NCBI RefSeq assembly: GCF_003012935.1
Contig: NZ_PUDR01000005.1
Span: 248,001 to 312,000 of the forward strand
Source: Pannonibacter carbonis
GTDB lineage: Bacteria > Pseudomonadota > Alphaproteobacteria > Rhizobiales > Stappiaceae
DNA length: 64,000 nt
Reading direction: 5' to 3'
Below the pieces are notes generated by a model, which was not told the DNA's origin, did no database searches, and was given only the letters and a program-made list of their open reading frames with translations. The position numbers and the translations under genes are program-made. This document shows positions 15,501 through 20,728 of the stretch, piece after piece (position 1 is the stretch's first letter; every line of letters begins with the position of its first letter).

Positions 15501-15528
15501 CCTTACGGACGAAACGGAGCCGGGTCAA
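15501..15528 (-). promoter_or_regulatory. Candidate rnpB promoter overlapping the DUF2339 stop codon
   Basis: TTGACC (15528-15523) is followed after 16 bases by GTAAGG (15506-15501), which would put transcription start close to 15494, the inferred first base of RNase P RNA. The TGA stop of the upstream gene (15527-15525) lies inside the -35 hexamer. The -10 match is poor. Confidence 0.55.
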
Positions 15529-18335
15529 GGACGAGCGGTGTCATCGGCTGCAGGCGGCGGGGCCGGCAGCCGCAGGACAAGCCGCTGATAGGCAACGCCG
15601 ATCCCCATCAGCGTGAGGCCAAGACCGACGAAGGACAGCGCCCGCATGACACCTTCGAGCGAGGCCATGTCGATCAGGAATACCTTCAGCACCACGGCGG
15701 CAATGACCACGCCGGACAGCTTGCGCAGACCAAGCGAGGCACGCAGGAAGCCGAAGCCGAGCAGACCGACGCCGATCACCAGCCAGACCAGCGACGTGAC
15801 ATAGGTTTCCAGTTCGCTGACCGGGGCTGCATCGAGATAGTCCGGACTGAACGCCTGACGAATGGTGAGATTGACGAACCAGAAGCCAAGAAGGGCGGCA
15901 AAAAGCGCTGTGACCTGGACATAGCGGCGCGGGCGCACCGGGGCCGCGGCGACAGCCAGCACCGCGTAAAGCAGCGCCGGAAGCCCGTAGGCATAGGTCA
16001 CCCAGTTGAAGACACGTCCCGTCCCGACCGATTCACCCGTCATCAACGGATTGACCAGCGCGGCGAGGCTCATAGCGCCAAATCCCATGCCGGCGAGACT
16101 GACCGCCATGGCGCCCCAGGTAAGGACCGGAGACACCGTGTTGCGGCCGAGCCGGGTGAGACCGAGGGCAACCGCGCCGCCGATCAGCACCAGCACGGCG
16201 CTGGCCTGCAGTTCCATGCCATTGCCGGAGAAGCGGAAGACCGGATCCACGGCATGCAGCGCCAGCATGGCGAGGGCAAGAACGCCAAACAGGATCGCAA
16301 GCGCCTGGGTGCCCAGCGCCGGCAGGTCACGGGCGCGAAGGCTGAGGAGCACCGCCGCACCGGTCAGGCCAAGCGCTGGCAGGCCGTAACCCGGCAGCAA
16401 GGCATTGAACAGCGGCGTCGTCCCGAGCTGATCGCCGACGATGAAAGGATCCCACATCAGCCGGGCGGCATAGGGAAGGACGCTGAGCGGAACCAGCCAG
16501 CGCAGCGCCACAAGCCTGTGCCGTAGTCCGGTTGCCGCGACGATCAGGGGCAAGAGGCCCAGCGCGACCGTGAGCGCGGCCGAGCCAAGGCTGAAACAGG
16601 CGGCGAGCACGGCGAGGGTGAGGCCGGCAATGACCCAGCCGGCCAGGGCCGCCTCGCCGCCCGGAACAAAGGGCGCGGCTTGAGACGACTGGCGCCGACC
16701 GAAGCGGGCGGTGAAATGCTCGGCCATGGCAAGGCAGAGCAAGGCAAGGGACAAGGCGAGCAGACCGAAGCGCAGCGAAACCTGCCAGTCTTCAAGACGG
16801 ATCCAGGCGATGCCGACAAGGCCGACGACGCCTGCGAGCGCCGCGCCGGTGACAGGGCCACGCGCAGCCGACCGCAGCGAGGCGTAAAACGCCAACGCAA
16901 ACAGCACCAGGCCCTCGATGCCGATCAGCAGGCGGAATGTGGCGAGCCGTTCGGTCGCCTCCGCCGGCACTGGTGTGATCACCGCCGCCGCATCGCCCGT
17001 CAGCGTCATGCGGGTGAGGTCATCCAGCCTCAGGCCCTCGCCAAAGCCGAAGGCGAGCAGCAGCAGCACCAGGAGCGGCGCAATGACGGCATAGCGCAGC
17101 GCCGGTGCCTGACAGGCGAGTACGAACGGGACAAGCAACAGGCCAGCCTCGACCAGACTGAACCCCAGGCTAGTCGGGAACTGCAAGGTGAGGACGAGCG
17201 GCAGCAGGACGGTGGAGAGCGCAGCAGTGGCAACCCAGTCCACGGAAACCGGGAAGGCCGGGGCATTGCGGTGCAGGCGATAGACGAAGCCGGCGAGGAC
17301 AAGAGCCGTTGCCGCCAGCAGATAGAGCACCAGCGCCAGCCGGTCCCCCTGCCCGGCCGCAAAGCCGAACAGGAAGCCATAGGCGCAGAGCCCGGCGACG
17401 GCAAGGCCGGCGAGCCAGAGCCAGAACCGCGTGCGGCCGATACCGATGGCGGCTGCCGAGACGAATAGGACATAGGTCATGGCCGGCACAAGCGCTGGTT
17501 CGCGCGAGGACACCAGCAGCGGCACGGCGTAGCTGGCGGCGACGCCCAGCCCGGCCAGTGCCGGCCCGTGCAGCAGCGCCGCGAGCATCGTGAGTATTGC
17601 AACGGCCCCAAGCGCGACAAAGGCCGATGCCGGACCAAGCAAGCCGTAGAGCGCGTGGGCAGCATAAAGATCGGCAAACAGCGTCAGGCTGCCGGCGGCC
17701 GTCAGCGTTGCAGGAATGTTGGCTGTCTCAAAGCCTGGAACGGAGAAGACACTCGGCCAGCGCCGGGTGAACTCGCCCGCTGCCATCAGGCCAAGCCCGA
17801 GGATTGCCCCGAGAAGGATCCGCACCTCAGGACCGAAGAGATTGTTATCAATCGCGTATTTGACGAGGAACACGCCGCCGATGGCCAGCGCGATGCCCCC
17901 GGCCCAGACAGTCCACTTGCCGCCAATCTCGCGTTCCCGGTCGATGGCGGGTCTGGTCGATGGTTCCACCGGGTTTGCCTGCGGGGCCTCGTCGCGGCGT
18001 GGCAGATGGGCAAAGGGGCCGGACAGGGGCGCATCTGCATCGGGTTGCGGCAGGTCGGCAGCCTCAGCGGCGGCATATGCGGGGCTTCCGGTGGCTGCTT
18101 CCGCCGGTGTCTTGTCTTCAGGCGCGGCGGACAGAAAATAATCCTCCACCTCGCCATCGGGACCTGGAATGGTCTGCGCGACCGAGCGGACATCCAGCCC
18201 GGGCGTCAGCGCGCGTTCGAGCGTGGCAACGCGTCGCTTCAACTCACTGACCCGGAAATAAAGGATGATCGGCAGCACGAATGCAATGAAGCCGAGGCCC
18301 AGGCCGAGAATTGCAAGGGTAGCCAACTCGTCCAT
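15525..18335 (-). CDS. DUF2339 family polytopic membrane protein
   Basis: Very hydrophobic protein of 936 residues. One N-terminal membrane segment (LAILGLGLGFIAFVLPIILYF without its ends, about residues 6-27) and a short coiled-coil ELKRRVATLERAL are followed by an acidic and Pro/Ala-rich linker to about residue 120 (EVEDYFLSAAPEDKTPAEA). Then come REREIGGKWTVWAGGIALAI, the DUF2339 start, and some two dozen transmembrane helices to the end. The function of DUF2339 is unknown; the family is widespread in proteobacteria and the size is typical. It stands alone between rnpB and a long repeat-bearing gap. Confidence 0.85.
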   Translation of the reverse strand: MDELATLAILGLGLGFIAFVLPIILYFRVSELKRRVATLERALTPGLDVRSVAQTIPGPDGEVEDYFLSAAPEDKTPAEAATGSPAYAAAEAADLPQPDADAPLSGPFAHLPRRDEAPQANPVEPSTRPAIDREREIGGKWTVWAGGIALAIGGVFLVKYAIDNNLFGPEVRILLGAILGLGLMAAGEFTRRWPSVFSVPGFETANIPATLTAAGSLTLFADLYAAHALYGLLGPASAFVALGAVAILTMLAALLHGPALAGLGVAASYAVPLLVSSREPALVPAMTYVLFVSAAAIGIGRTRFWLWLAGLAVAGLCAYGFLFGFAAGQGDRLALVLYLLAATALVLAGFVYRLHRNAPAFPVSVDWVATAALSTVLLPLVLTLQFPTSLGFSLVEAGLLLVPFVLACQAPALRYAVIAPLLVLLLLAFGFGEGLRLDDLTRMTLTGDAAAVITPVPAEATERLATFRLLIGIEGLVLFALAFYASLRSAARGPVTGAALAGVVGLVGIAWIRLEDWQVSLRFGLLALSLALLCLAMAEHFTARFGRRQSSQAAPFVPGGEAALAGWVIAGLTLAVLAACFSLGSAALTVALGLLPLIVAATGLRHRLVALRWLVPLSVLPYAARLMWDPFIVGDQLGTTPLFNALLPGYGLPALGLTGAAVLLSLRARDLPALGTQALAILFGVLALAMLALHAVDPVFRFSGNGMELQASAVLVLIGGAVALGLTRLGRNTVSPVLTWGAMAVSLAGMGFGAMSLAALVNPLMTGESVGTGRVFNWVTYAYGLPALLYAVLAVAAAPVRPRRYVQVTALFAALLGFWFVNLTIRQAFSPDYLDAAPVSELETYVTSLVWLVIGVGLLGFGFLRASLGLRKLSGVVIAAVVLKVFLIDMASLEGVMRALSFVGLGLTLMGIGVAYQRLVLRLPAPPPAADDTARP

Positions 18336-18558
18336 GTCGTTCTCCTGATCCGGGCCTCAGGTGCAGGACACCCGCACTGCCAGAGTCCTACAGGATGCAG
18401 CAGCGCGATGCCATGGACGACGAGAGGGACAGTTATCTTCGTCATGCCATGACGGCAGGGGGGCGGGGGCCTGAACGACGGCCGGACCGAGGGGCGGCTC
18501 TGCAGCCGGATCAGGAAACCTGTGGCAGCGGATGTCACGCTCGGCTGAAATTTTCTTC
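18336..18558. other. Upstream region of DUF2339 gene, no gene seen
   Basis: Nothing coding. It should hold the DUF2339 promoter. The 13-bp palindrome GTCATGCCATGAC at 18441-18453, followed by GGCAGGGGGG, looks like a decayed relative of the paired palindromic element just to the right. Confidence 0.5.
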
Positions 18559-18707
18559 GTCATGCCATGGCTCGACCATGGCATCCATGCCGTGACCTGG
18601 CAGTCAGGCATCGGCATCCGCGTGGACGGCTGGTCGGGTGGCCTTTTTCGGGTCCGTGTAGGCTGAAAGGGAACGGCATGGATGCCATGATCAAGTCATG
18701 GCATGAC
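18559..18707. repeat. 149-bp palindromic element, copy 1
   Basis: Two 35-base arms, 18559-18593 and 18673-18707, are inverted repeats of each other except for a short central stretch (GCTCGAC versus ATCAAGT as written on the plus strand). Each arm is itself a hairpin, CATGCCATG-N7-CATGGCAT. Between the arms are 79 bases. Copy 2 begins 253 bp further on. Both ends read GTCATGCC/GGCATGAC. Confidence 0.85.
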
Positions 18708-18811
18708 GGCAGGGGGTATGGGGGCGATGTTGACGGCAGGGGGTACGGGGCCGGAACTCCTGTCGGACCGGGCAGAACAGCGGCAGCGCCATATACAGCA
18801 ACAGTTTCTTC

Positions 18812-18960
18812 GTCATGCCATGGCTCGACCATGGCATCCATGCCGTGACCTGCCGGCCCGGCACTGGCATCCATGTGGACGGCTGGTCGGGTGGCCTATT
18901 TCGGGTCCGTGCGGACCGAGAGGGAACGGCATGGATGCCATGATCAAGTCATGGCATGAC
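18812..18960. repeat. 149-bp palindromic element, copy 2
   Basis: Same architecture as copy 1: arms at 18812-18846 and 18926-18960 with the same two loop sequences. The interior is conserved at GGACGGCTGGTCGGGTGGCC and GGAACGGCATGGATGCC but diverged elsewhere. The stretch just after it (GGCGGGGGGGTACGGGGGCG) resembles the stretch after copy 1. No reading frame across either copy looks like a protein. Confidence 0.85.
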
Positions 18961-19005
18961 GGCGGGGGGGTACGGGGGCGATGTTGACGGCAGGGGGGCG
19001 GGTTG

Positions 19006-20529
19006 TCAGTCCGGCCCGGTTGCCGCATGACGCTGGCGGAGGTCGGTCTTGAGGACCTTGCCATAGGCGTTCTTGGGCAATTCGGCGACGAAGTGCCAGG
19101 CCTTTGGCCGCTTGAAACGGGCGAGCGCGGCTAGGCAGTGGGCGTCGAGATCGGAAACCGTGACGCCTGGATCAGCCACCACGAAAGCCACCACCACCTC
19201 GCCCCAGTCCGGGTCGGGAGCGCCGATGACCGAGACTTCCCGCACAGCCGGATGGGTGAGCAGCACCTCCTCGACCTCACGCGGATATATGTTGCTGCCG
19301 CCGGAGATGATCACGTCCTTGGAGCGGTCGGTGAGCGTCAGGAAGCCGTCGGGGGACAGGCGGCCGACGTCGCCGGTGTGCAGCCAGCCGCCGGCGAGGG
19401 TTTTGGCCGTTGCCTCCGGATTGTTCCAGTAGCCGGCCATGACGGGCGTGCCGCGAACCAGGATCTCGCCGTCCTCTCCCGGCCCGAGCGGTGCCCCGTC
19501 CGGACCGGCGATGCGCACCTCGACGCAGGAATGCGGCGTGCCGACGGAGCCAAGCCTTTCGCGCCAGGAAGGATGGCTGCGGTCTGCCACCAGATGGCGC
19601 GGCAAGGCGGTGATGGTCATCGGGCACTCGCCCTGGCCGTAGATCTGGACGAAGCGCGGCCCCATGACCGCCACGGCCTCCTCGATGTCGGCGACATACA
19701 TGGGCCCGCCGCCATAGACGATGGTGCGAAGGCCCTCGCCGGTGACGCCGTCGGCCTGGGCGCGCTCCACCAGCCGGCGCACCATGGTGGGGGCGGCGAA
19801 GAGGTGCAGGCTGCCGAAGGCCCGGCCCAGCGCCAGGATCTCCGCAGGCTCGAAGCCGCCGCTGTCCGGCACGACATGGCCGGCACCGCGAATGACATGC
19901 ATGAAGTTGTAGATGCCGGCGCCGTGGGACATCGGCGCGGCATAAAGGGCGGCGTCCTCGGGCCGGACCTCGTCGACATCGCAGAAGTAGCTGAGCGTCA
20001 TGGCCATCAGGTTGCCGTGGGTGATCATCACCCCCTTCGGCTTGCCGGTGGTGCCGGAGGTGTAGAACAGCCAGGCGAGATCATCGCGCCCGCGTGGCGC
20101 AGGGCTGGCATGGTCGTCATCGGCGGTCAGACCGAGATCAAGGCCGGCAAGCCGGGTGGCGGCTCCAGCCTCCAGGAGCGCGGCGGCAAGATCCGTGTCG
20201 CCCGGATCGGCGACAAGCATCAGGTCGGCACCGCTGTCGCGGGCAATGAAGGCCGCCTCGCGGACATGCAGCTTGTAATTGACCGGCACCATGGCAAGGC
20301 CCGCGTGCCAGCCGGCGTAGAGAAGCTCAAGGTAGGCCGGGCAGTTCTCGGTAAAGATCGCCACGCGCGCGCCGGGCTTGAGCCCTTCAACGGACCGCAG
20401 GTGAAAGGCGCGGCGGCGCACCCTTGCGGCAAAGGTGGCGTAGTTGGCGACAAGGCGGGTTCCCTGATAGAGCGCTGGCCGCTCCGGCATCACCCGGCCC
20501 GCGCGGGCCAGCCATTCGGCAACGTTCAT
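19006..20529 (-). CDS. Acyl-CoA synthetase / AMP-binding ligase
   Basis: ANL-superfamily enzyme that activates a carboxylic acid as acyl-AMP and then acyl-CoA. The phosphate loop LFYTSGTTGKPKGVMI is near residue 155, YGQGECPMTITALP replaces the usual YGxTE near 290, and GWLHTGDVGRLSPDGFL, DRSKDVIISGGSNIYPREVE and the C-terminal PKNAYGKVLKTDL (catalytic Lys) follow. Start set at the ATG at 20529 preceded by GGGGGAGGAGAC, giving 507 residues; a longer frame adds 13 Gly/Pro-rich residues. Substrate cannot be read; the divergent CoA-transferase suggests carboxylic acid catabolism. Confidence 0.88.
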   Translation of the reverse strand: MNVAEWLARAGRVMPERPALYQGTRLVANYATFAARVRRRAFHLRSVEGLKPGARVAIFTENCPAYLELLYAGWHAGLAMVPVNYKLHVREAAFIARDSGADLMLVADPGDTDLAAALLEAGAATRLAGLDLGLTADDDHASPAPRGRDDLAWLFYTSGTTGKPKGVMITHGNLMAMTLSYFCDVDEVRPEDAALYAAPMSHGAGIYNFMHVIRGAGHVVPDSGGFEPAEILALGRAFGSLHLFAAPTMVRRLVERAQADGVTGEGLRTIVYGGGPMYVADIEEAVAVMGPRFVQIYGQGECPMTITALPRHLVADRSHPSWRERLGSVGTPHSCVEVRIAGPDGAPLGPGEDGEILVRGTPVMAGYWNNPEATAKTLAGGWLHTGDVGRLSPDGFLTLTDRSKDVIISGGSNIYPREVEEVLLTHPAVREVSVIGAPDPDWGEVVVAFVVADPGVTVSDLDAHCLAALARFKRPKAWHFVAELPKNAYGKVLKTDLRQRHAATGPD

Positions 20530-20728
20530 GTCTCCTCCCCCGGGCTCTGGCGATTTTGTCCCAGACAAGCCCGGTTTGCCGCCGCTGGCAAGTCACTCGA
20601 AGGATGAGGCTAGGAGGTAGGACAGGAGATGCTGCGTCGCAAAAACTTCATTGGTTCAGCGGTTTGCAAAGCGGTAGCGTCCACGGGCTGCCGAAGGGGC
20701 AGCGGGCAGCAGGGAGCTGGCGCAACCC

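Follow-up and report, generated by a model that had tools for sequence, protein, structure and literature searches.

What are the paired palindromic repeats that lie between two genes of Pannonibacter carbonis, and which enzyme might have made and spread them? The window, by which we mean the whole stretch of 64,000 nucleotides analysed (contig NZ_PUDR01000005.1, positions 248,001 to 312,000), carries at 18440-18961 an array of three tandem units, namely two intact REP dimers and one collapsed remnant, in the intergenic region between two minus-strand genes, one for an AMP-binding enzyme and one for a DUF2339 protein. The array and its neighbours comprise the following features:

15525..18335, minus strand: gene for a DUF2339 membrane protein (PF10101, E 3.3e-90), with the array upstream of its start
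18440..18454, no strand: remnant of a collapsed REP dimer, CGTCATGCCATGACG, in which the left tag runs directly into the right one and the interior is gone
18558..18591, plus strand: REP arm A of dimer 1, CGTC + stem ATGCCATGG + loop CTCGA + CCA + TGCC
18675..18708, minus strand: REP arm B of dimer 1, CGTC + stem ATGCCATGA + loop CTTGA + CCA + TGCC
18558..18708, no strand: head-to-head REP heterodimer 1, tags outward, 151 bp, one long hairpin on folding
18811..18844, plus strand: REP arm A of dimer 2
18928..18961, minus strand: REP arm B of dimer 2
18811..18961, no strand: head-to-head REP heterodimer 2, 151 bp, 91% identical to the first copy over 165 nt at a spacing of 253
19006..20568, minus strand: gene for an AMP-binding enzyme, acyl-CoA synthetase-like (PF00501, E 2.9e-71, and PF13193)

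In each intact dimer, two 34-nt arms face each other in inverted orientation, tags outermost. The arms follow one formula, CGTC, a 9-bp stem ATGCCATG(G/A), a 5-nt loop (CTCGA or CTTGA) and then CCA, and the difference between arms A and B is confined to the loop region (G-CTCGA-C versus A-CTTGA-T), giving the rule R-CTYGA-Y with a closing pair that changes from G-C to A-T between the arms. Folded as DNA, single arms formed the 9-bp stem and 5-nt loop (in dimer 1, -9.8 kcal/mol, z -2.76, for arm A and -8.9 kcal/mol, z -3.27, for arm B), and as RNA the whole dimer folded into a single long hairpin (-102.1 kcal/mol, z -10.2). The pattern CATGCCATG-N7-CATGGCAT, with up to 3 mismatches, had 8 strand matches in the window, all within the array; the same pattern in 100 shuffles averaged 0.54 matches, with 4 as the largest number. 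The initial annotation had described two copies of a 149-bp element repeated every 253 bp, whose arms were each a hairpin of their own, paired with one another over 35 bases end to end and had loops that differed between arms and were identical between copies. The repetition and its period, the hairpins and the loops (GCTCGAC and ACTTGAT, the latter written there as ATCAAGT) were all borne out. The copies measure 151 bp from tag to tag, and the pairing of the arms is nearly end to end but misfits at the loop, the 46-nt arms being 85% complementary. The count of two overlooked the collapsed unit, which we recognised from two repeat families (D2 and D3), an inverted repeat (I7) and alignment with Pannonibacter sp. 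SL95, where the corresponding intergenic region holds a single intact dimer whose start matches the position of the remnant. Elsewhere in the window, at 678-907, three GC-rich CGTC-...-CCA hairpins of another stem type (GCTCCTGC/GCCCCTGC) lie within 230 bp.

CGTC REPs have been described as having an unpaired CGTC tag (with TGTC or CCTC as alternatives), an 8-9 bp stem starting with AT, a 4-5 nt loop and a CCA tail (PMC3733652; Di Nocera, De Gregorio, Rocco 2013). According to the same source they occur mainly in Alphaproteobacteria and chiefly in head-to-head pairs, in which the two units often differ, large clusters being rare; they have no adjoining transposase and "apparently lack a dedicated transposase"; the family includes RPE-4 and RPE-6 of Rickettsia, and the CGTC-1 elements of Neisseria are equated with dRS3. 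In the window, the CGTC lay outside the stem in all four arms, the stem had 9 bp (ATGCCATGG or its A variant), the loop 5 nt (CTCGA/CTTGA) and the tail was CCA, the 9/5 lengths fitting families 3 and 4 as given in that description (PMC3733652). The units were head-to-head heterodimers at loci of this genome and of SL95, they were intergenic in the window and present at 51 exact sites in the genome, and the genome had no match to PF01797, a search that covers the Y1 transposase family. It is thus near certain that the element is a CGTC-tagged REP array. By itself such an element is ordinary; it adds a new member to a known repeat family, in a host group absent from the main text of PMC3733652.

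The initial annotation had proposed a repeated, hairpin-forming, BIME-like non-autonomous element, a proposal that its many copies confirmed, and had thought it unlike ordinary REP units, a view contradicted by the stem, loop, CCA tail and heterodimer pairing of the published CGTC REPs (PMC3733652). It had also called the element RAYT-like. That a RAYT, i.e. a Y1 transposase, should have mobilised these REPs or REPINs is extremely improbable: there is a general likeness in the palindromes, the head-to-head pairs and the BIME-like clusters, against which stand a tag that is CGTC and not GTAG, and the want of a Y1_Tnp (PF01797) match in 13 of the 14 dimer-bearing genomes (among them G000, the genome of the window, G001-G004, G016 and G027), the remaining one (G030) having a single weak match with a stop inside.

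The hairpin pattern, again with up to 3 mismatches, matched this genome 67 times on the forward and 62 times on the reverse strand (0 and 0 for the reversed control), a near-palindrome of this kind usually being counted on both strands. The exact arm gave 52 strand hits at the 51 sites, 4 of these in the window, so the repeat is more than a local duplication, and the lack of other copies that would have refuted the initial annotation did not come about. Dimer matches were found in 14 of 61 genomes searched, and an exact-pattern scan of a contig database hit 78 stretches in records of Pannonibacter, Roseibium and Labrenzia. At the loci of this genome and of SL95 the units run plus then minus, about 101-116 bp apart with few exceptions, in arrays of up to 10 units, and most dimers combine one A and one B loop (L081/L108 being an exception). 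The other clusters of this genome were given a rough ORF check, and overlaps there are with unverified ORFs. The feature is therefore a tandem array of CGTC REP head-to-head heterodimers, one of which an internal deletion has collapsed, and such dimers abound in the genome.

Twelve of the 15 loci in this genome aligned with REP loci of SL95, with differing numbers of dimers. At one locus (L071) the SL95 sequence has collapsed between short repeats inside the arms; we had considered it as an empty site and rejected this, the apparent gap being a collapsed dimer. This collapse and the differing dimer numbers make local gain and loss of dimers clear. Tag-to-tag palindromes at L078 (2885-2915) and, in SL95, at L165 are likewise collapsed dimers, a form accounted for by deletion between short direct repeats in the two arms. 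Two contigs of the window's genome (C3 and C7, at their first bases; L072 and L073) end in REP clusters that align to one SL95 locus (L136), so the assembly probably broke at a REP array. In addition, the flanks of an SL95 dimer that adjoins tRNA-like sequence (L194) lie about 9 kb apart in the window's genome (G000:C18:23992-33481; L079, L206), which suggests an island at that site. No exact insertion site could be fixed between the Pannonibacter species, the intergenic DNA being too diverged.

Some of these data would also suit an ordinary REP function, in which the repeats, as 3' mRNA stabilisers, terminators or sites for gyrase or another protein, would be selected and locally multiplied, any nuclease nearby being incidental. 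The array lies 45 bp past the stop of the AMP-binding gene, its RNA fold is very stable (the z-score given above), and the loci shared with SL95 vary in place by whole dimers; an Rfam search, which returned no family match, speaks against it, as do two further sets of observations described below.

The search for a linked transposase, proposed in the initial annotation and made here with PF01797, found none, and in relatives it is a GIY-YIG nuclease gene that is linked instead. SL95 has an array of three dimers with a small GIY-YIG gene next to it, and at the orthologous site the window's genome lacks both. In R. aggregatum (L102/L238) a REP-gene-REP block has one stem type on both sides, and R. 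suaedae (L094) and R. litorale (L363) each carry two such blocks in tandem. The encoded proteins have about 97 aa and one GIY-YIG domain (PF01541, E 4e-16, over residues 5-77 of 97). Five aligned cognates share core residues including Y8, Y19-T-G, R28, E66 and N85 (numbering of P0001), which we take to be the catalytic set. The closest solved chain was 1zg2, a UPF0213 protein; the predicted structure (pLDDT 75.7; best Foldseek match E 0.004, TM 0.43) was used only as agreement with the Pfam call. Compared with its relatives, the SL95 gene beside the array stops early at an in-frame stop (L192, about 966-968, on G003:C3). Genes of the same branch, hereafter the cognate branch, are present in G002, SL95 itself (G003), G004, G016, G027, G030 and G033. 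In the window's genome we found only two small GIY-YIG genes (L223, L251) and a UvrC-length ORF, neither small gene being of the cognate branch or near a REP.

We quantified this neighbourhood starting from the genes. The genes were identified independently of REPs, by searching 37 family and 96 class genomes for PF01541, and their surroundings were scanned for generic CGTC hairpins, near meaning within 300 bp and far beyond 500 bp; the rules for a hairpin were fixed once the first examples had been seen, and for the scans of named replicons and of orientation they took in one more tag and one more tail. In the family, 50 hairpins fell in 39.5 kb near GIY-YIG genes (1.27/kb, at 25 of 66 loci) versus 12 in 83.3 kb far from them (0.144/kb); in the class (Alphaproteobacteria) the figures were 12 in 16.8 kb (0.71/kb, at 6 of 28 loci) versus 4 in 53.0 kb (0.075/kb). 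As a control, ParE genes of the same 37 genomes had a near hairpin in 1 of 29 cases (a single hairpin in the 17.4 kb near, none in the 58.0 kb far), and this hairpin starts with GT, not AT. UvrC loci, centred on the locus and not on gene ends, had near hairpins in 0 of 20 cases and none in their whole 63.9 kb. The difference from ParE was significant for the family (Fisher, p 2e-4) and marginal for the class (p 0.046). Left out of these counts were two repeat fetches of places already included (L237, L276), three partial matches in ORFs of 299-341 aa (L273-L275), one ParE locus under 3 kb and L314, whose gene was not located.

The association extended to named replicons. A tblastn search of plasmid records gave 33 records, and among 14 examined of the 30 listed, near-identical strains being passed over, 11 had CGTC REPs within 300 bp of the gene, in alpha-, beta- and gammaproteobacteria, with 25 hairpins in 8.4 kb near versus 5 in 250 kb from five of these records. 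They include Neisseria gonorrhoeae, where the gene sits inside an array of CGTC-ATTCCCGC hairpins (L381, a record labelled as a plasmid, of 2.17 Mb), and the gammaproteobacteria Aeromonas caviae and Photobacterium; the records of Planktothrix, Novosphingobium aromaticivorans and Spirosoma had no CGTC REP within 300 bp. Across the 37 family genomes, dimers occurred in 7 of 8 genomes with the cognate branch versus 5 of 29 without it (p = 5e-4, relatedness not controlled). Class-wide, the density of the pattern correlated with the number of GIY-YIG genes in 95 genomes (Spearman 0.39, p 9e-5), a correlation that is weak because the pattern also catches non-palindromic coding matches and because relatedness is uncontrolled. 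Some genomes had many CGTC...ATCCA matches and no GIY-YIG gene at E <= 1e-9 (50 matches in G153, for example). Another CGTC...ATCCA repeat, AT-rich and with no clear 8-bp stem, occurs in G086 as at least 15 identical copies of CGTCATTTTAATGGATTGATGATTATCCA.

Taken together, the genomic association of CGTC REPs with GIY-YIG genes is strong. A chance neighbourhood, with REPs and small GIY-YIG genes gathering in the same accessory intergenic DNA, would agree with the hairpin density that is still raised 0.5-1.5 kb from the genes (the family's 0.144/kb); we consider it very unlikely in view of ParE, another small accessory gene with next to no hairpins around it, of the REP-free GIY-YIG branches in the same genomes and of the match between REP and nuclease types, both of which emerged from a tree of the nucleases.

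This tree comprised 94 GIY-YIG genes, 32 with REPs and 62, unselected like the rest, with no REP within 300 bp; it has few columns and many unresolved forks, and loci first reached through REPs (L094, L363, L362, L366, L356, L371) were left out of it. In the cognate branch, the closest to the SL95 gene (support 99), 7 of 8 genes were REP-associated, the other (L230) having no REP nearby; two other PF01541 branches from the same genomes had 0 of 15 and 0 of 10 REP-associated rows. Thus CGTC REPs cluster around one branch of small single-domain GIY-YIG genes, in relatives and in distant Proteobacteria. When the loop class (4 nt versus at least 5 nt) was mapped on the 32 REP-associated genes, 3 changes sufficed, compared with a mean of 10.4 and a minimum of 6 in 1000 shuffles, none of which was as low as 3. 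Beyond the CCA tail, the sequence was CCATGCCGT-like in the cognate branch and CCAGTA-like in another; the window dimers end CCATGCCGTnnCCT-like, as the cassettes do, and dimers and cassettes have similar sequence beyond the hairpin (CCATGCCGTnnCCTnTC-like). REP type therefore goes with nuclease type. In addition, a tag-out REP stood upstream at a constant 40-43 bp in all four cognate-branch rows having one (L238, L216, L221, L207), a spacing also seen in six cassettes chosen through their REPs.

These regularities bear on the possibility that the GIY-YIG gene is a parasite, a homing-type nuclease that inserts into REP arrays, with the REPs spreading otherwise (by recombination, slippage or some other enzyme). 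It would agree with genes that lie inside a head-to-head dimer at some loci and between whole dimers at others, with tandem arrays in which the gene is one more spacer (L094, L363) and with the existence of a REP-rich genome that has no cognate gene, that of the window. Counting against it are the loop class of the REPs and the sequence past the hairpin, both of which follow the nuclease branch, and the constant upstream spacing in the cognate branch; we consider it unlikely. Orientation was less regular than spacing: the nearest REP was tag-outward in 24 of 38 (p 0.14) and 10 of 15 cases (p 0.30), a weak and non-significant excess, since the genes are of two kinds, those within a dimer and those between dimers. 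Genes with REPs on two sides stood in a simple head-to-head bracket in 4 of 12 and 4 of 6 cases, and a rule that the gene always lies inside a head-to-head dimer, which we had considered, is not supported by the nearest-REP orientation.

Whole blocks were also present at some sites and absent from others. Azospirillum lipoferum 4B carries a dimer, the gene and another dimer in the interval from sufB to sufC; in A. oryzae, A. ramasamyi, Azospirillum sp. B510, A. argentinense and A. thermophilum this interval is short and contains neither REP nor gene. A block was found in two Shinella replicons and was absent from two, and at another locus (L103) it was found in G187 and G185 and absent from G184, G189 and G171. 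No exact junction or target duplication was resolved at the sites compared, the flanks being too diverged, so that gain by transposition and loss can be separated by parsimony only. An ordinary REP function accounts neither for this presence and absence of whole blocks nor for the enrichment near GIY-YIG genes across alpha-, beta- and gammaproteobacteria, which makes it distinctly unlikely.

The explanation that best accommodates these data, and one that we regard as probable, is that nuclease and REPs form a mobile unit, of which the window dimers would be non-autonomous, MITE-like derivatives; judged from sequence comparison, the putative mobilising role of the nuclease has the balance of likelihood on its side. 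The nuclease would nick or cut REP hairpins or cruciforms; repair from another copy, or strand slippage, would then spread the dimers and multiply them in tandem in trans, and unequal pairing of short direct repeats in the arms would collapse them. The genome of the window would have lost the cognate gene, or never had it, and since it has none, its copies may be relics, or may be kept only by tandem duplication and deletion. More generally, there is an even chance, in our estimation, that the CGTC REPs, one of the two large REP super-families and including dRS3, are miniature mobile DNA driven by small GIY-YIG nucleases and not by transposases, REP-nuclease-REP being the autonomous form and scattered dimers the non-autonomous one.

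The question of which enzyme makes CGTC REPs was explicitly left unanswered in 2013 (PMC3733652) and has stood since. The nuclease is a candidate with a known catalytic fold, and a literature search of open-licence papers, bioRxiv excluded, found no paper linking CGTC REPs to a GIY-YIG nuclease. If the proposal is true, there are in bacteria two independent enzyme solutions for REP-type miniature elements, this being the second, and a role emerges for many genes whose only annotation is "GIY-YIG nuclease family protein". What makes the window array valuable is the candidate enzyme to which it points, one for the CGTC super-family as a whole.

Compared with known systems, the window-type repeats share with published CGTC REPs the tag, the AT-starting 9-bp stem, the 5-nt loop, the CCA, the intergenic head-to-head heterodimers and the lack of an adjoining transposase; they differ in their large clusters, in an additional conserved TGCCGTnnCCT beyond the tail and in the link to a GIY-YIG gene, of which we found no mention in PMC3733652. 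The nuclease shares the catalytic GIY-YIG domain with GIY-YIG homing endonucleases and with small UPF0213-like proteins (PF01541). In contrast to the homing endonucleases, we saw no second DNA-binding domain and no intron or intein, and it is REP hairpins that flank the gene; similarity to a group I intron endonuclease model was weak and below the model cut-off. Like MITEs, the dimers are short, terminally inverted and apparently derived from a longer gene-bearing element, whereas here no target duplication was resolved and there is no DDE transposase. BIMEs and REPINs with their RAYT (REPtrons) combine a GTAG tag with an HUH Y1 transposase, in place of the CGTC tag and GIY-YIG nuclease found here; they too have alternating REPs in arrays, and likewise an enzyme gene bracketed by the repeats on which it would act, with enzyme-less dimers as derivatives.
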